DNA of 57,765 nucleotides from Clostridiaceae bacterium (lineage in GTDB: Bacteria; Bacillota; Clostridia; DSM-8532), in NCBI GenBank assembly GCA_012839205.1, contig DUNT01000072.1, positions 1-57,765 of the forward strand, written 5' to 3'. A model generated the notes under the pieces. That model ran no database searches. It saw only the letters and a list, made by a program, of their open reading frames with translations, and was not told the origin of the DNA. Position numbers and translations under genes: made by a program. This document shows, piece after piece, positions 20,201 to 55,729 of the stretch (positions are counted from its first letter, which is position 1; the number at the start of each line of letters is the position of its first letter).

Positions 20201-20287
20201 GCGAAAGTGGTGGAACTGGCAGACTCGCTAGATTCAGGTTCTAGTGTCCGCAAGGGCGTGCGGGTTCAAATCCCGCCTTTCGCACCA
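20201..20287 (+). tRNA. tRNA-Leu (anticodon CAG)
   Basis: An 87-base class II tRNA with encoded CCA. The acceptor stem GCGAAAG pairs with CTTTCGC, followed by discriminator A and CCA. The anticodon loop TTCAGGT sits between CTAGA and TCTAG, giving anticodon CAG, which reads CUG. The long variable arm (around GTCCGCAAGGGC) is typical of leucine tRNAs, and the T arm is CGGGTTCAAATCCCG. It is a single gene with its own promoter and terminator. Confidence 0.97.
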
Positions 20288-20408: not shown

Positions 20409-22700
20409 TTATCTTAAAACTATAGCTACTACTTTCCCACCATAGCCTGATGGCTTATCGAGGAATAATGTTACAGAGCCCCACTCAGTACCCTTTTTCA
20501 GGTCTGATACCTTAAGAGTCTTCCAGCGGGAGGGGCCGATGTACTCATAAACAGCAATATTCTTGTGGTAAGTATAAACCTTACCGTTTATCCGTATACG
20601 GGATGAATCAACAGCTTGTATTTCCTTACCATATTCGGATGCATTGATACTATTCTGGACAGAACGAATTTTATTTCCGTCAAGTTTTACCCTGGCAACA
20701 GAGTTAACATACAGACCTGTTTCTTCCCCGGTATAAACCATGGTTTGACCATTTACCAAAAGTGTCACAGTTTCAATTGTTATTATTTCATCTACTGCCA
20801 TGATAACATCGGTCTTTTTTGAGGTTACTAGTCCATAGGCCACGTTATCTTCAAGAGCATCGTCCAGTAACATTACATCAATATCCATAAAGTCTCCGGA
20901 CCTATGAATGTACTTGACCCTTCCGCTCATCAGATATCCTGCTGGAAGATCGCTGAAGGAGATTACCTCAGCCTCGATTTCGGCAGAGGCTGTATTTATG
21001 ATATTAAACAGTACGGCTCCATTTGCTACATAACTGTCACCTATCATTCTCTCATCTTTATCAACCTTGTAGCTTCCGGTTATCTTGGTGTCTATGCTGA
21101 CAAGTTTTACCGTATCATAATCCTTGCCGGTGGCAATAATCTCATAGGTTGCCAGCCTACCCCGAAACGTGGACATTGACCGCTGAGTCCGATAAGTTTT
21201 CTTTCCTCCGTCAGAATGTAAAAGTGTTACATAATAGTAGGGAGTGCCAAAGTCCTCTGACTTAACAGAATTTTCAGTATAAGCATTCAAAACAAATACA
21301 AAACGATTAGTTCCGGGTATGGTCTCAGTTATAATATCAACAGCTGTACCATCGGCTCCGATTATCAGTTTTGCTGTTTCTCCGACTTGTGTTGCTTCAG
21401 CTCTGTTCAGCTTTTCCTTTGGAAAGTTTTCGCCTAATGTGAATGGCTTGTTGTCAATTTCTATTGAGACAGGAGATATTTTATTGGGAAGTATAGCTGT
21501 AATTTTTCCCGAAACCATATTGTCATACACAATAATATACGGGTTTTGGTTCCATATATCGGTAACTTTATAAACAACATCATTAATCTCGATTTGTGAC
21601 GCTGAAATATATTTGCCCCCCTTATCGATAAGATGCCCTTTATACTTAATTTCCAGCGGTACACCTGCCATACTTGAGGTAATTACTTCAGGGTCGGATT
21701 TTATTGGGTTAAATACTGTACCGTATACGGTTTTATCTCCATCATATGCAATAATTACCGATGAATTCATTTCTAAATGTGAACTTAATTCACTATAATT
21801 AATAGTGCTTCCTTTATAATAATACGGAATGCCTGCCGGCAGTTTTACTTTTTCTCCGTTATTTGTAGTCAGTATTCCTGAAGAAAATGATGATACTGAA
21901 TACTCTTTATACTGATAATCGGTCAATGCTACATGTTGTATATCATTATCCTTAAAGCTGAAATAATACTGTTTACCGGCATCAGGAACATCAATTCCAT
22001 CTTTAAGATAGAAGAATCCTTTATCGGTTAAAATCTGTCTGTCATCAACATTTTTGTTTATAATACTGTTTTCCAGCACAATAGCTGATTTGTATGCAGA
22101 AACTGTATCAATAAAGTTTTTACCGGTACCAAAAACCTTGGTTGAAAGCAGTCTGTCAAGCATCAGAGCAATCTGCCCTCTGGTTACAAAGGCGTTTGGA
22201 CTGTAGTCAATCGTGTCAAGTATACCCAGTCCGTCAAGCTTTCTCAAATACTTTTCATTTGTGCTTCCCGGCAGGTATGCATCATCATATTTAAGCATTT
22301 TGCCTAAAATTTCTGCAACAGTACTGAAAGTTACTTTTTCAGTAGGAGAAAAAATATTACCGGACTTTGCATTCATGTAACCAGATCTTACTGCTACATT
22401 TATGTATGGGTTTGACCATCTTGATACCGGAACATCAGTAAATAAACTGGTATTCTCATATAAATCAAGCTTATCCTTTAACCCGTTGATGTGTACTAAC
22501 ACTACAGCAAGCTGTTCACGGGTAACGGGATCGGAAAGATTCATTTTATCAGTATCGGTTTTTGCAAATATACCTAAGTCCATCAGCCTTTGCATACTTC
22601 TTACCTCTGAGGCAGAATCGGCAAAAACTTTATTAGCCGGTAAAACAAAAACAGATAGCATTATACTTATTGTTAAAATACAGCATAAAAATTTCTTCAT
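20409..22700 (-). CDS. S-layer homology (SLH) domain surface protein
   Basis: A 763-residue secreted protein. The N-terminus MKKFLCCILTISIML.. is a signal peptide ending near VFADSA. Three SLH modules span about residues 30-200 (each with a TREQLAVVL-, FSTVAEIL- or TRGQIALML-like core), which in this family bind pyruvylated cell-wall polymer. The remaining ~550 residues are beta-rich and not recognised. The start was set at the internal ATG ten bases after AGGAG; two earlier ATGs are too close to or before that box. It may be a cell-wall-anchored structural or copper-amine-oxidase-like-domain protein, but no enzymatic motif is visible. Confidence 0.88.
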   Translation of the reverse strand: MKKFLCCILTISIMLSVFVLPANKVFADSASEVRSMQRLMDLGIFAKTDTDKMNLSDPVTREQLAVVLVHINGLKDKLDLYENTSLFTDVPVSRWSNPYINVAVRSGYMNAKSGNIFSPTEKVTFSTVAEILGKMLKYDDAYLPGSTNEKYLRKLDGLGILDTIDYSPNAFVTRGQIALMLDRLLSTKVFGTGKNFIDTVSAYKSAIVLENSIINKNVDDRQILTDKGFFYLKDGIDVPDAGKQYYFSFKDNDIQHVALTDYQYKEYSVSSFSSGILTTNNGEKVKLPAGIPYYYKGSTINYSELSSHLEMNSSVIIAYDGDKTVYGTVFNPIKSDPEVITSSMAGVPLEIKYKGHLIDKGGKYISASQIEINDVVYKVTDIWNQNPYIIVYDNMVSGKITAILPNKISPVSIEIDNKPFTLGENFPKEKLNRAEATQVGETAKLIIGADGTAVDIITETIPGTNRFVFVLNAYTENSVKSEDFGTPYYYVTLLHSDGGKKTYRTQRSMSTFRGRLATYEIIATGKDYDTVKLVSIDTKITGSYKVDKDERMIGDSYVANGAVLFNIINTASAEIEAEVISFSDLPAGYLMSGRVKYIHRSGDFMDIDVMLLDDALEDNVAYGLVTSKKTDVIMAVDEIITIETVTLLVNGQTMVYTGEETGLYVNSVARVKLDGNKIRSVQNSINASEYGKEIQAVDSSRIRINGKVYTYHKNIAVYEYIGPSRWKTLKVSDLKKGTEWGSVTLFLDKPSGYGGKVVAIVLR

Positions 22701-22783
22701 TCTTTGCATACTCCTAACTGGTTTGTGATTCATTTAATAATACTGAAAACATCAGCTTTTGTCTGATTTAATAGAAAAAAGAA

Positions 22784-48735: not shown

Positions 48736-50046
48736 ATGTCTGTTCCGAGTTGTAAAATACATCAGAAAAATCAGAGCAGGTATTACTTTCTGATACCAGC
48801 CTTATTATTAATTCTTATTTTCCGTATAACGATCTCCTCAATAAAACCCTATCCTATTGATATGAACGGGTATGTGGCATGGAGTAATTATTTAGCCATA
48901 CATGGACCCTCTCAATTCTATGGTACATCCGGATTCCATGTTGTTTACGCCCCATTTTTTCAATATTTTTTATGGTTTACCGGGGAAATTGCAAACAGAT
49001 TGTCTCTTTCAACCGCTTTACATGTTGTCCTCATAAAACTCTGGTCAGTTTTATTTGAATTTATAGGTGCATGGCTTATACTGCTAATCTCAGAAAAAGC
49101 AAATAAACCTGAAACCGGAACTATAATGGCATTTATATATTTGGTAAACCCCGGTGTATATATAAACTCTTCCATCTGGGGCCAATTCGATTCAATTCCG
49201 GCAACTATGCTCATAGGTGTAATAGCTCTTTTCGAATTCAGGAAACATAACCTGGCAGCTTTACTTTTTCTCATTGCTGTTTTGACAAAACCTCAAAGCG
49301 GGCTTTTATTGCCAGTGGTTTTATATCTTTATTTCAAAGATTTCAAAATGGACTTAAAATCATTTTTACGGTTAATAACCGGGTTAGTGTCAGGACTTTT
49401 AATCTACTATGCCATTGTTTTACCATTTTATCTTCCAACGAGTCTTGCCAACAAGCTTCCTAAATTCATAGATCCACTTTACTGGATTTTTGAGCTGTAT
49501 TATAACAGTATCAAGGATTATCCCTTCGCAACGGCTAACGCTTTCAATTTCTGGTTTCTTCTTGGAGGGCAAATTCAGCCTGACAAACTGCCTTTTCTTG
49601 GGTTAAGCTATTTTGCCTGGGGGAATATACTTACTTTAGCTGCTGTTTTATATGCTTTTATCTGCTTAATTAAAGGCGGTGCTTCAATCTATTCTATAGC
49701 TTATTTTTCATACCTTGTTCAGTTTAGTGCATTCTTTTTCATGACTAAAATGCACGAGCGGTACCTGTTGCCAGCAATAATCTTTATTACTCTTACATCT
49801 GTTTTTGATAAAAAACATCTGCTGCTACTTGGGCTTGTTAGTTTTTCGGTATTTATAAATCATTTATATTTGTATATAATCTCATTTGGGGAAGTGTATT
49901 GGCTTGAACGTTGGGATGGTCTTGCCATGCTTTTCTCGTTTTTTGTGCTTATAACCTATATGTTGTCAGTTTATCAGGGTTACAGAGCTTTTATACAGCC
50001 TGGAAATAACTCAACGGGAGTATGTGATGACTGGAATGATTACTAA
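48736..50046 (+). CDS. GT-C type integral membrane glycosyltransferase (GT87/ALG6-like)
   Basis: A 436-residue polytopic protein with about ten hydrophobic segments. An extracytoplasmic acidic site near the N-terminus (PYPIDMNGYVAWSNY), the motif SIWGQFDSIPA, LTKPQSGLLLP and a late KMHERYLLP are typical of polyprenyl-phosphate-sugar-dependent mannosyl or glucosyl transferases. It would transfer a sugar from a lipid carrier outside the membrane. ACGGAGG precedes the ATG. It is first in the glycosylation operon, and its end overlaps the PMT gene by 20 bases. Confidence 0.8.
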   Translation: MSVPSCKIHQKNQSRYYFLIPALLLILIFRITISSIKPYPIDMNGYVAWSNYLAIHGPSQFYGTSGFHVVYAPFFQYFLWFTGEIANRLSLSTALHVVLIKLWSVLFEFIGAWLILLISEKANKPETGTIMAFIYLVNPGVYINSSIWGQFDSIPATMLIGVIALFEFRKHNLAALLFLIAVLTKPQSGLLLPVVLYLYFKDFKMDLKSFLRLITGLVSGLLIYYAIVLPFYLPTSLANKLPKFIDPLYWIFELYYNSIKDYPFATANAFNFWFLLGGQIQPDKLPFLGLSYFAWGNILTLAAVLYAFICLIKGGASIYSIAYFSYLVQFSAFFFMTKMHERYLLPAIIFITLTSVFDKKHLLLLGLVSFSVFINHLYLYIISFGEVYWLERWDGLAMLFSFFVLITYMLSVYQGYRAFIQPGNNSTGVCDDWNDY

Positions 50047-51853
50047 AAAAGATATTAAAATTATGACCATAATGACCGTAATATACTTAATTATCGCACT
50101 TTTTAATCTCGGCTCTTTTAATGCTCCAAAAACAGGATGGGAACCTGAAAGACTGAATGAAAGTTTCATTGTTGACTTCGGTAGAGAAGTTGCGATAGAT
50201 AAAATAATGTTGTTTGGCGGTCTGGGCCATAGTTGGGGATGTTTTGGAAGCCTGGAAATAGAAGCTGATCACAATGGTGAATTTAAGCCTTATTCTTTTA
50301 TCGATATGAAATCAATCTACAAATGGCATTATACCACTGATATGGTGACTACAGACAAGTTAAGATTTACAAACACATATTTAAGAACTGAAATCGAGCA
50401 TGATAAAAATAAATTCTATAAAGCTGAATACTTAGAAATGGGTTTTTTTAGCGGAAACAGCTTAATATCAGACTTTACAATAATATCAGAGCCAACAACG
50501 CCGGGTATTGAGAAACTTTTTGACGAACAGGATTTGGTTCCGGATCGTCCAACTGTTTTAAACGGCACCTATTTTGACGAGATCTACTTTCCCCGTACTG
50601 CACTTGAACAACTTGAAAAGCGAGATATCCTCTATGAAAATACTCATCCGCCGCTTGGAAAAACTATAATTGCATTTGGAATAAGTATCTTTGGAATGAC
50701 TCCTTTTGGCTGGAGGATAATGGGGACAATATTTGGCGCAGCTCTGATACCATTAATGTATATTATAGCTAAGCGTTTCTTTAAAGACACCTTTTGGGCT
50801 TTTTTCTGCGCCTGGCTAATGATGTTTGACTTCATGCACTTTACTCAGACACGTTTGGCTACTATAGACAGCTATACTATATTCTTTGTGATGCTTATGT
50901 TTTACTTTATGCTGGATTATTATGATTCAAAATCCTATGAACGAGGTTTCTTAAAATCCCTCATTCCCCTGTTTTTAAGTGGTATTTTTCTTGGCTTAGG
51001 AGGCGCAACAAAATGGATTGCACTTTACGGAGCCTCAGGTCTGGCAATTCTATTTTTCTTGTCAAGAGGCTATGAGTATAATGACCTTAATAACCAGCTC
51101 AACCTTCGAATAAAAAATGAAGGAGCATCTGTAAAGCTCAAGGAAAAAGAACTGGGAAAATGGTTAGGTAAATATTTTTATTTAACATGCCTGTTCTGCG
51201 TAATCCTCTTTATTGTCATACCACTAGCTATATATGTATTGTCATTTATCCCCATAGACTATAAAGAAAATGATATGAGTCTTGTAAAATCAGTAATAGA
51301 GTCAGTAAAAAGTATGTTTAATTATCATAAGGGTGTTGATGAATTTCATCCCTATGCATCCCCCTGGTACGAATGGCCTTTAGATATTCGTCCTATTTTT
51401 TATTACCAGGGAGAACTGCTTCCTGATAATTTGGGCGCATCAATTGCCTGTTTTGGGCATCCGCTGCTGTTTTGGATCGGCCTTATCGCTTTTTTGGTAA
51501 TACTATGGTCTTTTATATCTTACATGTTTAATAAAAAGAACACTCTTGGTGAAAATAAACTGCTTTTGTTCCCGGTAATAGGCTATTTATCGCAATACCT
51601 GCCCTGGGCAGTAGCACCGAGAAAAGTTACATTTATATACCATTATTTTTCTTGCATCCCTTTTCTTATTTTAATGGTTGGTATTCTTATTAAGTACCTG
51701 GAAGAAAATAATATTATTAGTCGCAAGTTTACTAAGATTTTTCTTATAGCATTTTTAACATTATTCATTTTTTATTATCCGCTTTTATCAGGGCTGGAGG
51801 TTCCCAGATTGTACCTGAACATCTTACAGCTTCTTCCCCGCTGGGAATGGTAG
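50027..51853 (+). CDS. Protein O-mannosyltransferase-like (PMT, GT39) with N-terminal discoidin-like domain
   Basis: A 608-residue GT-C enzyme. After one membrane helix (about 10-29), residues 43-142 look like an F5/8C (discoidin) domain: FIVDFGREVAIDKIMLFGG, then GSLEIEADHNGEFKPY and YLEMGFFSG. The PMT core follows: the acidic pair D184-E185 in YFDEIYF, HPPLGK (208-213), RLATIDS, and about ten further helices with the PMT C-terminal loop (HPYASPWYEWPL.., a MIR-less form). PMTs move mannose from a polyprenyl phosphate to Ser/Thr. The ATG is six bases after GGGAG; a GTG one codon earlier is less likely. Confidence 0.85.
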   Translation: MTGMITKKDIKIMTIMTVIYLIIALFNLGSFNAPKTGWEPERLNESFIVDFGREVAIDKIMLFGGLGHSWGCFGSLEIEADHNGEFKPYSFIDMKSIYKWHYTTDMVTTDKLRFTNTYLRTEIEHDKNKFYKAEYLEMGFFSGNSLISDFTIISEPTTPGIEKLFDEQDLVPDRPTVLNGTYFDEIYFPRTALEQLEKRDILYENTHPPLGKTIIAFGISIFGMTPFGWRIMGTIFGAALIPLMYIIAKRFFKDTFWAFFCAWLMMFDFMHFTQTRLATIDSYTIFFVMLMFYFMLDYYDSKSYERGFLKSLIPLFLSGIFLGLGGATKWIALYGASGLAILFFLSRGYEYNDLNNQLNLRIKNEGASVKLKEKELGKWLGKYFYLTCLFCVILFIVIPLAIYVLSFIPIDYKENDMSLVKSVIESVKSMFNYHKGVDEFHPYASPWYEWPLDIRPIFYYQGELLPDNLGASIACFGHPLLFWIGLIAFLVILWSFISYMFNKKNTLGENKLLLFPVIGYLSQYLPWAVAPRKVTFIYHYFSCIPFLILMVGILIKYLEENNIISRKFTKIFLIAFLTLFIFYYPLLSGLEVPRLYLNILQLLPRWEW

Positions 51854-51871
51854 TTTGGAGGTAAATTACAA

Positions 51872-52330
51872 ATGCAGAAACTATTAAAATGGCTATGCAG
51901 TCTTCCTATACTGAAAAAACTGTTTACACCTGAATCTCTTGCTCAGTTTTTCAGATATATTTTTGTTGGAGTTTTTTGTTTTTCAATAGAATACACTTTG
52001 TTTATTGTTCTAAGAAATGCGCTGTCTATTAGTGAGATACTTGTTAATGTAATTGTCTATACCATAATATTCTGGCTAAATTTTTTATTAAACAAGTTCT
52101 TTTCCTTCAGGTCAACCACAAACTTCAAGAGACAGCTGTTCCTTTATGGCATTCTGTTCTTCTTTAATCTTATAGTGGGTAACATATTCATTTTTTCAGG
52201 TATACGTTATATTTTGGTTCTCTTAACCGAAGAAGGATCCTGGGCTGTTTTATATCTTCCGAAAATTTTGATAATGTTCTTTATTATTTCATGGAACTTT
52301 ATTCTGTATAAAAAGGTTATATACAAATAA
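51872..52330 (+). CDS. GtrA family membrane protein
   Basis: A 152-residue protein with four hydrophobic helices and the GtrA signature FFRYIFVGVFCFSIEYTLF near residues 26-45. GtrA-like proteins are thought to flip or help move polyprenyl-phosphate-linked sugars across the membrane. It follows PMT by 18 bases with a GGAGG box, which fits delivery of the donor to the GT-C enzymes. Confidence 0.88.
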   Translation: MQKLLKWLCSLPILKKLFTPESLAQFFRYIFVGVFCFSIEYTLFIVLRNALSISEILVNVIVYTIIFWLNFLLNKFFSFRSTTNFKRQLFLYGILFFFNLIVGNIFIFSGIRYILVLLTEEGSWAVLYLPKILIMFFIISWNFILYKKVIYK

Positions 52331-52347
52331 AAAATAAGGCGGATATT

Positions 52348-53646
52348 ATGAATATTGCAATTATAGGAGCAGGTTTAACCGGTATGACTGCAGGCCTCCG
52401 GCTTTCGCAGAAAGGAAACAAGGTTACTATATATGAGAAAGAAAATTACTTAGGCGGTTTAGCCTCCTCTGTACATGTTGGCAGTGAGGCTATAGACCGT
52501 TTTTATCATCATATTTTTCTAAGTGATTTAGAAGTTTTAACCCTTATTGATGAATTGGGTCTTAAAGACCGGTTAAATTGGTATAAACCTAAAAATGCAA
52601 TTTATATTGACAATTCCATTCATCCCTTCACCTCACCTTTTGATTTATTGTGCTTTAAACCACTCTCTTTCATTTCCAGAATTCGTATGGGAATTATGGT
52701 TTTGGCTTCTAAATTTAACAAGGACTATTTATCTTTTGAAACCATCACGGCCAAAGAATGGATTATTAAGAATTCAGGCCGGGAAGCCTGGCAAAAAGTA
52801 TGGGAACCGTTAATTAAATCAAAATTTGATATAGATAGCGAAAGAATATCGGGTACATGGATATGGAATAAGCTAAAGCTCCGGGGATCATCAAGAGGAA
52901 AGAACCTTAACAAAGAAATGCTGGGGTATTTAGATGGAGCCTTCAATAAAATTGTTGAGAAAATGGCTGAAAGAATTATCCAATCGGGTGGCAATATTCT
53001 TTTAGATAATGAGGTTACCACTATAATAAAGAATGAAAGCGGTTCATTTGATATTGTGTCAAAGAACCTTAATGCAAACTATGACCAGATTTTATTTACA
53101 TCCTCACCGAATCTTCTTTCGGATATATTTCAGGGACCTTATAATAATTATAAAGAGTCCCTCAGCAGGATTAGATATAAAGCCAATATCTGCGTTCTTC
53201 TGGAGTTATCTCAGAGTCTGTCACCATATTATTGGATAACAGTGGCTCAGGAGGGCTTACCCTTTGTTCTGATTATAGAACATACAAACCTGGTAGGTTT
53301 AAAGAATTACAATTCCCATGTTGTATACTTATCCAGGTACCTGGATATTTCAGATCCTTTGTATTCAGCATCTGATGATGATATTATCAATGAATTTGCT
53401 GATGGATTGAAAAAGGTATTTCCCGGTGTAAACCGACAAATGATAAAGAATATAACCATAAGCCGGGCACCATTTGCACAGCCTGTTATTACACTTGGAT
53501 ACAGCAAAACTATTCCGGATATTATTTCTCCGGTAAAAGGGCTCTATCTGGCTTCTATGTCACAGATTTATCCGGAGGACAGAGGCTTGAATTATGCTGT
53601 AAGATTAGGACAAAAAGTTGCAAATGAAATACTTGGAAACTTATAG
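52348..53646 (+). CDS. FAD-dependent oxidoreductase (amine-oxidase/HemY-like), unassigned
   Basis: A 432-residue flavoprotein. The dinucleotide fold GAGLTGMTAG is at residues 7-16, with the YEKENYLGGLAS motif, and a C-terminal FAD motif GLYLASMSQIYPEDRGLNYAVRLGQKVA. It belongs to the COG1232-like group of protoporphyrinogen oxidase, UDP-galactopyranose mutase and desaturase-type enzymes that often accompany GtrA and GT2 genes. The substrate could be a nucleotide sugar or the polyprenyl carrier; sequence alone does not decide. It lies 17 bases after gtrA. Confidence 0.75.
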   Translation: MNIAIIGAGLTGMTAGLRLSQKGNKVTIYEKENYLGGLASSVHVGSEAIDRFYHHIFLSDLEVLTLIDELGLKDRLNWYKPKNAIYIDNSIHPFTSPFDLLCFKPLSFISRIRMGIMVLASKFNKDYLSFETITAKEWIIKNSGREAWQKVWEPLIKSKFDIDSERISGTWIWNKLKLRGSSRGKNLNKEMLGYLDGAFNKIVEKMAERIIQSGGNILLDNEVTTIIKNESGSFDIVSKNLNANYDQILFTSSPNLLSDIFQGPYNNYKESLSRIRYKANICVLLELSQSLSPYYWITVAQEGLPFVLIIEHTNLVGLKNYNSHVVYLSRYLDISDPLYSASDDDIINEFADGLKKVFPGVNRQMIKNITISRAPFAQPVITLGYSKTIPDIISPVKGLYLASMSQIYPEDRGLNYAVRLGQKVANEILGNL

Positions 53647-53682
53647 TATACTAAATAATGATATATTGTTTAGGAGGATTTC

Positions 53683-54669
53683 ATGGAAAAAATTTTATGT
53701 TCGGTAATTGTACCTATGTATAATGAGGAAGAAGTAATTACAGAGACTTATACAAGACTGACTAAAGTTATGGATGGCATTGGAGAAAACTATGAAATTA
53801 TCTTTATAAATGACGGCAGCCGTGACAATACAGGGGCAATAATAAGAGAGTTTTGTAAAAACAATAAAAGAATAAAAATGATAGATTTTGCAAGAAATTT
53901 TGGGCATCAGATTGCCATTACCGCTGGCATGGATTATGCAGCAGGAGAATGCATGGTTATTATTGACGGTGATCTGCAGGATCCTCCGGAGCTTATTCCC
54001 GATATGATAAAAATCTGGCGTGACGGTTATGATGTGGTCTATGGCAAAAGAAAATCCCGCCAGGGTGAAACTTTCTTTAAGAAAATTACAGCAAAAGCTT
54101 ACTACAGGATTCTTCGCGGTCTAACAAACGTAGACATACCTGTTGATACTGGTGATTTCAGACTCATTGACCGTAAGGTTTCTGAGGCACTGAAGCAACT
54201 TCCCGAAAGAAGCCGTTACGTCAGGGGCCTTATGAGCTGGGTAGGCTTTAAGCAAACTGCAATAGAGTTTGAGCGCAGTGAACGTTTTGCCGGAGAAACC
54301 AAATATCCTCTTAAGAAAATGCTGAAACTTGCAATGGACGGTATTATGTCTTTTTCCTATAAGCCGCTTAAACTAGCCTCTTATATTGGCGCTATTCTCT
54401 CCGGGATCAGCTTTCTATACCTGATTATCGTGGTAATCCAAAAACTATTTTTCCCTGAAACATCACAATCCGGCTGGACTTCACTGATTGCCGTAAGCCT
54501 GTTCTTTAACGGTATAATCCTGCTTATGCTGGGTATTATCGGAGAGTATATCGGGCGTATATATGAAGAAGCAAAGGGACGTCCTCTCTATATCATAAGT
54601 GAGTTGAAAAATATGGAAGAGCGGATTGGACCACGTTATAAAACCAAACAAAACACTAGTCCTGATTAA
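53683..54669 (+). CDS. Polyprenyl-phosphate glycosyltransferase (GT2, GtrB/DPM1-like)
   Basis: A 328-residue GT2 enzyme that probably loads a sugar from a nucleotide donor onto polyprenyl phosphate on the inner face of the membrane. The N-terminal VIVPMYNEEEVI, FINDGSRDNT, the DGDLQDPPE acidic motif and ERSRYVRGLMSW are visible. Two C-terminal membrane helices (about 230-255 and 263-288) match the GtrB form. AGGAGG precedes the ATG. Its last 14 bases overlap the convergent gene. Confidence 0.9.
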   Translation: MEKILCSVIVPMYNEEEVITETYTRLTKVMDGIGENYEIIFINDGSRDNTGAIIREFCKNNKRIKMIDFARNFGHQIAITAGMDYAAGECMVIIDGDLQDPPELIPDMIKIWRDGYDVVYGKRKSRQGETFFKKITAKAYYRILRGLTNVDIPVDTGDFRLIDRKVSEALKQLPERSRYVRGLMSWVGFKQTAIEFERSERFAGETKYPLKKMLKLAMDGIMSFSYKPLKLASYIGAILSGISFLYLIIVVIQKLFFPETSQSGWTSLIAVSLFFNGIILLMLGIIGEYIGRIYEEAKGRPLYIISELKNMEERIGPRYKTKQNTSPD

Positions 54670-55729
54670 AAAGCGGTTTACTGCTAAATATTCCGCTTTT
54701 CATAACCATTCCTCTAATTGTTTTGTTATACATTCCAGGACTTTTCATTTGCTTAAATGTTATGGAGTTTAATACCGGCTTAAGGTTTTCTCTGTATCTT
54801 TTCTGAAATCCTTCCAAACCGTTATTCAGGCTCTTTGCCAATGCATAAGAACTTCTTAAAGCAAAGCTTATTCCCTCTGCAGAGCTGGGGCTTATAAATC
54901 CACCCGCTTCACCGACTAATGCAGCATGGTCATTTCCGGTAATTATGTCTTTTCTTTTGGGTCTGACTATATAGGCTCCCTCTCTTTTAATGCCATTATT
55001 AAAAACAAAGCCATATTCTCTTAATTTGCTTTTTAAAATTTCAAACTTCTTATTAGCCTCTTTATCAGGCATAAGAGCTGAACCTATAACCAGATTGCCT
55101 TCTTTAGGTATGGTCCAGGAATAAAAATCAGTAATCCGGCTGTCAAATATAGCTCCATAATACGGAACAGTCTGATCTGTCTGAAACCATTCCTGTATTG
55201 CAATATACTTTTTTAGGGTATCGTTTTCCTCGTAAACTTGTTGACGAACTTTTGATAAGGCCCCATCTGCACCAATAATCAGTCTGACTTTTTGAGTAAA
55301 AATTTTGTTTTTATATAAAAATGCAATCTCATATCCGTCTTTTGATTCAACCAATGAAGTGAATCTGCAACCCAATGCCAAATCAACATTTTCCGGTATT
55401 ACAGATAACAGCCATTTATCAAAGTCTAATCTGTTCATATTAAAATAGTAGCGTTGATAATAGCTTTCTAAATGATTGTCAAAATCAATGGTCCTTACTA
55501 AAAATATCTGTGGATCCACCAGAACTTTCTTTGGAACAGCAAGCCCCATTTTACCGATCATTTTTTGTGCATCAGGTGCTAAAAGGCCGCCACAGCACTT
55601 TTCTTTCTGGTTTTCTCCATCTATAAGGTCACGTCTGTCCAAAAGCAAAATTCTGTAATGACTGGGAATAAACCTGGCAAGGGCAGCACCTGCCGGCCCG
55701 GCTCCTATAATTGCTATATCATAATTCAT
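54656..55729 (-). CDS. Geranylgeranyl reductase-family FAD protein
   Basis: A 357-residue flavoprotein. The dinucleotide motif GAGPAGAALAR is near residues 8-18, followed by LLLDRRD and KCCGGLL. LIIGADGALSKVRQQV and LVGEAGGFISPSSAEGISFALRSS complete the family features. Known members reduce isoprenoid chains of archaeal lipids, chlorophyll, or menaquinone and polyprenol carriers. The two adjacent cysteines before GG may be redox-active. The ATG, about seven bases after GAGGT, was chosen over one two codons upstream. It lies tail to tail with the glycosylation operon. Confidence 0.82.
   Translation of the reverse strand: MNYDIAIIGAGPAGAALARFIPSHYRILLLDRRDLIDGENQKEKCCGGLLAPDAQKMIGKMGLAVPKKVLVDPQIFLVRTIDFDNHLESYYQRYYFNMNRLDFDKWLLSVIPENVDLALGCRFTSLVESKDGYEIAFLYKNKIFTQKVRLIIGADGALSKVRQQVYEENDTLKKYIAIQEWFQTDQTVPYYGAIFDSRITDFYSWTIPKEGNLVIGSALMPDKEANKKFEILKSKLREYGFVFNNGIKREGAYIVRPKRKDIITGNDHAALVGEAGGFISPSSAEGISFALRSSYALAKSLNNGLEGFQKRYRENLKPVLNSITFKQMKSPGMYNKTIRGMVMKSGIFSSKPLFNQD

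Follow-up and report, generated by a model that had tools for sequence, protein, structure and literature searches.

The closest described relatives of the system studied here are bacterial glycosylation systems. In C. bescii, deletion of Cbes_1864, an enzyme of glycosyltransferase family 39 (GT39), abolishes protein glycosylation, and the enzyme is needed for glycosylated secreted cellulases (PMC6151902). For S. mutans, the proposal is that PgfS, PgfM1 and PgfM2 act one after another in modifying surface proteins (PMC5856776). In three-component systems, auxiliary epimerases act on lipid-phosphate sugars (PMC11127046). Here we describe an operon from a Clostridiaceae bacterium (contig DUNT01000072.1 of assembly GCA_012839205.1, positions 1 to 57,765 of the forward strand, hereafter the window). 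It is very probably a cassette of known kind, in which a protein O-mannosyltransferase (PMT) initiates O-glycosylation of secreted proteins. What is added is a flavin step: one gene encodes a flavin adenine dinucleotide (FAD) oxidoreductase of family NF005560, which tracks the polyprenyl-phosphate-sugar loader GtrB across phyla. We found no description of this variant in the open-access literature, and nothing there on the FAD family or on an FAD step in GtrA systems.

Six open reading frames (ORFs) lie where an earlier note on this DNA had placed them. The gene set of that note stood, while its listed order did not; the actual order is a glycosyltransferase of the GT-C class (GTC1), PMT, GtrA, FAD oxidoreductase and GtrB on the plus strand, followed by a geranylgeranyl reductase (GGR)-like gene on the minus strand.

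48736-50046, plus strand: GTC1, second GT-C transferase, 436 aa; predicted ALG6/ALG3-like fold, probable extending transferase; homologues adjoin FAD or PMT in other families
50024-51853, plus strand: PMT (GT39) protein O-glycosyltransferase, 609 aa; PF16192, PF02366
50123-50518, plus strand: F5/8C-like domain inside PMT, extracytoplasmic loop 1, residues ~34-165, limits approximate; PF00754
50576-50581, plus strand: PMT DE motif, D185-E186, invariant in homologues and aligned with yeast Pmt4
51872-52330, plus strand: GtrA-family membrane protein, candidate flippase, 152 aa; PF04138
52348-53646, plus strand: NF005560 FAD oxidoreductase, soluble, 432 aa
53683-54669, plus strand: GtrB-type polyprenyl-phosphate glycosyltransferase, 328 aa; PF00535
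54656-55735, minus strand: GGR-superfamily-like FAD protein of the E. coli PRK11445 type, convergent, 359 aa; NF008519; probably outside the operon

The PMT gene starts at GTG 50024 or ATG 50027 and overlaps GTC1 by 20-23 bases; the gaps that follow are 18, 17 and 36 bases. The GGR-like gene is convergent with GtrB and overlaps its end by 14 bases. It reaches 55735, the previously given 55729 being a second ATG. The ORF check thus confirmed five compact plus-strand genes with gaps of at most 36 bases and the 14-base overlap. Shine-Dalgarno-like sequences upstream of GTC1, GtrA and GtrB are compatible with a single transcript. A consensus scan for promoter- and terminator-like sites gave no clear excess over shuffled sequence, and an Rfam search upstream of the operon found no element.

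The PMT passes the cut-offs of PF16192 (83.8 bits, cut-off 32.4) and PF02366 (64.1 bits, cut-off 22.7). In profile comparison it matches yeast Pmt4 and Pmt1, and the DE motifs align; the window protein has FDE at residues 184-186, and DE is invariant across 11 homologues. It is related to, and not an equivalog of, the bacterial PMT model NF058602 (80.9 bits vs cut-off 800). The F5/8C-like domain of about 130 residues sits between the first transmembrane segment and the DE motif. PF00754 was found in 7 of the 11 homologues (best E 7.3e-5), and the window copy is weak (E 0.032, residues 34-116). Family membership and motif support a function here as protein Ser/Thr O-glycosyltransferase. By its description (PMC6151902), Cbes_1864 is likewise a GT39 enzyme with a carbohydrate-binding-like domain at the same position in loop 1. 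Both lie in a short-gap gene cluster in a context of thermophilic or cellulolytic Clostridia. They differ in that PMC6151902 mentions no FAD oxidoreductase, whereas the window operon has one. Eukaryotic PMTs belong to the same family and share the DE motif, but no MIR domain was matched in the window PMT.

The other membrane components are consistent with this kind of system. GtrA matches PF04138 (39.6 bits, cut-off 26.1) and has four hydrophobic segments, and GtrB matches PF00535 (132.3 bits) and has two at its C-terminus. The model nearest to GtrB is PgfS, whose cut-off of 500 bits is not reached (310.7 bits). The S. mutans pgf system is similar in combining a GtrB-like PgfS, two membrane proteins and an accessory sugar enzyme (PMC5856776). 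There the accessory is the NAD epimerase PgfE, while in the window it is a flavoenzyme. GTC1 has no match in Pfam, NCBIfam or PDB profiles. Its AlphaFold2 model (pLDDT 84.9) aligns with yeast ALG6 bound to dolichyl phosphate glucose (Z 25.4, 388 residues, root-mean-square deviation 3.9) and with yeast ALG3 (Z 25.4). By its predicted whole-chain fold, GTC1 is an ALG6/ALG3-type GT-C enzyme, modeled in the shape of enzymes that use dolichyl-phosphate hexoses. Genes and predicted fold complete the three-component set in the operon: a family 2 glycosyltransferase (GT2) loader with C-terminal membrane segments, GtrA, and GT-C.

The FAD oxidoreductase scores 483.6 bits against NF005560 (PRK07233; cut-off 252), a curated model annotated 'hypothetical protein'. 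The window protein has no hydrophobic segment, so it probably works at the inner face of the membrane. Its AlphaFold2 model (pLDDT 93.0) matches phytoene desaturase 5mog (Z 35.6 over 424 residues), protoporphyrinogen oxidase (about 33-34) and UDP-galactopyranose mutase (UGM; 30.9). Four canonical identities were tried and rejected: UGM (TIGR00031, 31 bits vs cut-off 303.75), phytoene desaturase (41.5 vs 569.4), HpnE (76.6 vs 283.05) and protoporphyrinogen oxidase (32.4 vs 97.85). A 698-aa FAD reading frame (L133) was considered as a fusion that might hint at function and was set aside, having no recognisable extra domain.

Conservation was examined in 32 genomes of the bacterial family, with genera labelled g1-g7. 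A PMT match is present in 21 of them (one weak) and an FAD match in 30. Relatives whose proteins are roughly 50-88% identical show the GT-C, PMT, GtrA, FAD, GtrB order again, which places the arrangement beyond chance. It is kept in g1 and g7, where the cultured Thermoclostridium caenicola DSM 19027 (g7, L094) carries the operon, and partly in g5. With families over their cut-offs and gene order kept, the claim of a compact, PMT-containing operon for membrane glycosylation is borne out. GtrB lies directly 3' of FAD in 26 of the 27 loci whose contig continues; in the other (G019) three genes intervene. Genera g2, g3, g4 and g6 use the same slot beside thrC-hprK, mostly with a GGR-like gene after it. 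They keep FAD-GtrB, and where PMT and GTC1 would stand they have a membrane protein of roughly 750 aa together with a divergent member of DUF2298. Since FAD-GtrB persists while PMT and GTC1 are swapped, this pair is the steadier core and the transferases are exchangeable. The gene with which FAD is constantly paired is GtrB and not PMT.

Three further observations concern these loci. Between thrC and GGR in L065, L066 and L070, the membrane protein of the exchanged module has no Pfam match. One FAD copy (L053, G003:C41) carries an insertion of about 32 residues, and another (L052, G002:C28) is split over two reading frames, as a broken gene or an assembly error.

The sample was then widened to 148 Clostridia genomes, of which 58 carry PMT (PF16192), 21 a GGR-like gene and 10 FAD. 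PMTs, which the earlier note had described as best known from actinobacteria and eukaryotes, are therefore common in Clostridia. In other Clostridia PMT often has GtrB or a relative of GTC1 next to it while FAD is absent; L176, a locus from one other family, has GTC1, FAD, PMT and GtrB side by side. Outside the family, FAD occurs with a GGR-like gene in 2 of 4 genomes (p=0.055). Comparing the neighbourhoods of PMT and FAD across Clostridia, as had been proposed, upheld the FAD-GtrB linkage and not a constant pairing of PMT with FAD. A PMT-like stretch was also seen at 70-1200 of MT836770.1, an 8.8-kb record labelled 'Bacteriophage sp.' that is probably bacterial DNA.

The linkage to GtrB extends beyond Clostridia. 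We took 80 FAD loci that were the best matches to one FAD alignment among named genomes, and so not a random sample. GtrB-like genes number 42 within 4 kb of FAD and 1 beyond, in slightly more sequence, corresponding to densities of 0.087 and 0.0019 per kb (about 45-fold). GtrA, PMT and GTC1 relatives, flippase-like LPG_synthase_TM proteins and DUF2298 proteins also occur near FAD. Several Proteobacteria and Nitrospira have the order GtrB, flippase-like protein, FAD. In a tree of the FAD family, GtrB-linked members fall into two separate large clades. That the FAD oxidoreductase was the step without an assignment is borne out and can be stated more sharply: the enzyme follows a polyprenyl-phosphate-sugar loader from phylum to phylum.

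Other partners were found in fewer loci. Four plasmids (Burkholderia, Agrobacterium, Rhizobium and a Rhodobacteraceae bacterium; L199, L200, L202, L203) carry an operon of UbiA, DprE1-like, DprE2-like, epimerase-like, FAD and GtrA genes. The plasmid FAD genes score 548 and 510 bits against NF005560 in two of the four, and the other enzymes were scored for the Burkholderia plasmid. This operon is possibly a pentofuranose donor pathway with a second flavoenzyme. In two Chloroflexi loci (L116:9275-11296; L131:8834-11302) a squalene/phytoene-synthase-like gene lies directly upstream of an FAD gene that passes the NF005560 cut-off, which hints that some family members act on an isoprenoid. The synthase-linked members group together among Chloroflexi in the tree, and the UbiA-linked ones sit on a long branch. 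UbiA-type neighbours were counted in L142 and the plasmids. 'UbiA' matches near FAD in Omnitrophota (L123, L129, L132) are on the opposite strand, the L123 neighbour being LeuA-like, and were not counted. A DegV gene in L113 was rejected as a pathway gene.

The FAD partners load different sugars through enzymes unrelated to one another, so the substrate shared across the FAD family is likely to be polyprenyl phosphate or the sugar ester of it. The NF005560 enzyme thus probably modifies the polyprenyl-phosphate or polyprenyl-phosphate-sugar donor, at either the lipid or the sugar end. We lean slightly toward the isoprenoid part, because the varied partners share the lipid and not the sugar. It is quite conceivable, if short of probable, that the enzyme alters the carrier by saturation, desaturation, hydration or isomerisation and so provides a dedicated lipid for the extracytoplasmic GT-C enzymes. 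The closest predicted fold, phytoene desaturase, and the Chloroflexi synthase neighbours point this way. Two further items serve as leads only: a Haloferax GGR mutant kept alpha-saturated dolichol phosphate (PMC10821996), and NF005560 had a match in two control genomes, one of them that of Haloferax volcanii. Against action on the lipid, the conserved residues are polar, the phytoene desaturase and HpnE cut-offs are not reached, other bacteria with GtrB-type systems lack the NF005560 family, and a tailored carrier is not known in these bacteria.

The polar and aromatic character of many near-invariant residues in the FAD family (38 of 68) leads instead toward the sugar, as do the precedents of DprE1/DprE2 acting on ribose and UGM acting on UDP-galactose. 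Here the flavoenzyme would oxidise, epimerise or ring-contract the sugar on polyprenyl phosphate, which we regard as a tentative possibility. Epimerases are known to act on undecaprenyl-phosphate sugars (PMC11127046). The FAD and UGM profiles align over the N-terminal 250 residues (hhalign 98%, E 2.4e-13), UGM is among the structural matches, and no canonical UGM was found in the source genome. On the four plasmids the epimerase-like gene precedes FAD. Pentofuranose three-component systems and mycobacterial DprE1/DprE2 share the general plan, a lipid-phosphate sugar made inside, optionally modified, exported and used by a GT-C enzyme. However, their loader is UbiA and that of the window is GT2, DprE1 belongs to a different flavoenzyme family from NF005560, and PMC11127046 names no NF005560-type flavin step. 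Action on the sugar also has to accommodate partners that load different sugars (GT2 loaders as well as UbiA/DprE-like pentofuranose systems), the two Chloroflexi members that lack GtrB beside their synthase-like gene, and the low UGM score.

The earlier note had assigned tailoring of the lipid to the convergent GGR-like gene, proposing that it could saturate the polyprenyl carrier of the operon. The gene passes NF008519 (E. coli-type PRK11445; 412.2 bits, cut-off 303) and misses the TIGR02032 subfamily (110.7 bits vs 158.8). Its place beside the operon is kept in at least 18 genomes, which span four genera of the family, and archaeal GGRs are able to saturate dolichol phosphate (PMC10821996). 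Yet the gene is convergent and so shares no transcript with the operon, and in g7 and G009 it is located elsewhere while the operon is intact. Elsewhere in Clostridia its neighbours are unrelated, and outside the family PMT accompanies it in 7 of 15 GGR genomes, no more than chance (p=0.28). Tailoring by this reductase is not supported and seems very improbable, and with adjacency local to the family the gene was rejected as an operon member. The expected co-occurrence of all six genes was accordingly found for the five-gene order and incompletely for the GGR-like neighbour. Should one of these genes act on the lipid, the FAD enzyme inside the operon is a better candidate for it than this reductase.

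With reasonable confidence, we favour a three-component O-glycosylation operon with an NF005560 accessory step on the GtrB product or its carrier. The observed ground of this reading is gene content, family assignments, predicted folds, conservation and linkage. In the scheme we infer, for substrates, step order, sidedness and flavin reaction alike, GtrB would load a sugar onto polyprenyl phosphate at the inner face (step 1). The NF005560 enzyme would act there on the GtrB product or the carrier before export (step 2). GtrA may then help the loaded lipid across the membrane (step 3), and PMT would transfer the sugar to Ser/Thr of secreted or surface proteins (step 4), its loop-1 F5/8C-like domain possibly holding protein or glycan. 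The ALG6-type GTC1 would add a further sugar from a lipid-phosphate donor (step 5). As an accessory step, the flavin reaction may serve other transferases too.

Several points weigh against this scheme. In g5 (L019) GtrB comes straight after PMT, with GtrA and FAD missing between them, in draft genomes that are 75-83% complete. PMT occurs without FAD in 49 of the 58 Clostridia genomes that carry it, so FAD is not required for PMT as such. FAD as an obligate PMT partner was rejected on this count and on its occurrence with PMT in 3 of 4 genomes outside the family (p=0.14). The choice of the 80 loci by best match is another such point, and linkage tells of a common pathway without naming the substrate. 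Finally, the sugar could go to a wall polymer or another surface glycan instead of to protein. Gram-positive GtrA/GtrB/GT-C systems also modify lipoteichoic acid and wall polymers, and a Ser/Thr/Pro linker check of dockerin and SLH ORFs did not pin down protein targets. We nonetheless consider decoration of such a polymer unlikely, given the PMT family with its DE motif and the precedent of lost protein glycosylation in the Cbes_1864 mutant.

For O-glycosylation of proteins, the source genome offers 11 dockerin and 27 SLH domain matches as candidate targets. Ser/Thr/Pro linkers occur in a few SLH proteins and are not striking in dockerin ORFs, so any naming of targets is a guess. Glycosylation of secreted or surface proteins, as proposed earlier, is upheld as probable by the PMT family and the kept operon, while SLH and cellulosome-type proteins are candidates only. 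In the window itself, a tRNA gene at 20201-20284 (Rfam) lies beside a minus-strand ORF of 774 aa (20409-22733) with an SLH-domain match.

Three-component glycosylation is a widespread means by which bacteria decorate proteins and surface polymers, and the conservation of a flavoenzyme next to the loader in several phyla suggests that the current scheme lacks a step. We agree with the earlier note that this enzyme, linked to GtrB across phyla and annotated as hypothetical, is a plausible site of new chemistry. It may, we suggest tentatively, assist polyprenyl-phosphate-sugar systems generally, across many phyla, by altering the carrier or its sugar to give a dedicated donor for extracytoplasmic GT-C enzymes, which in this operon are PMT and the ALG6-like GTC1. 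If NF005560 saturates the alpha-isoprene, it would represent a bacterial route to a dolichol-like carrier. Identifying the step would decide whether it is the lipid carrier or the sugar bound to it that bacteria tailor ahead of export, with relevance for glycoengineering and for the glycosylated cellulases of thermophilic Clostridia.

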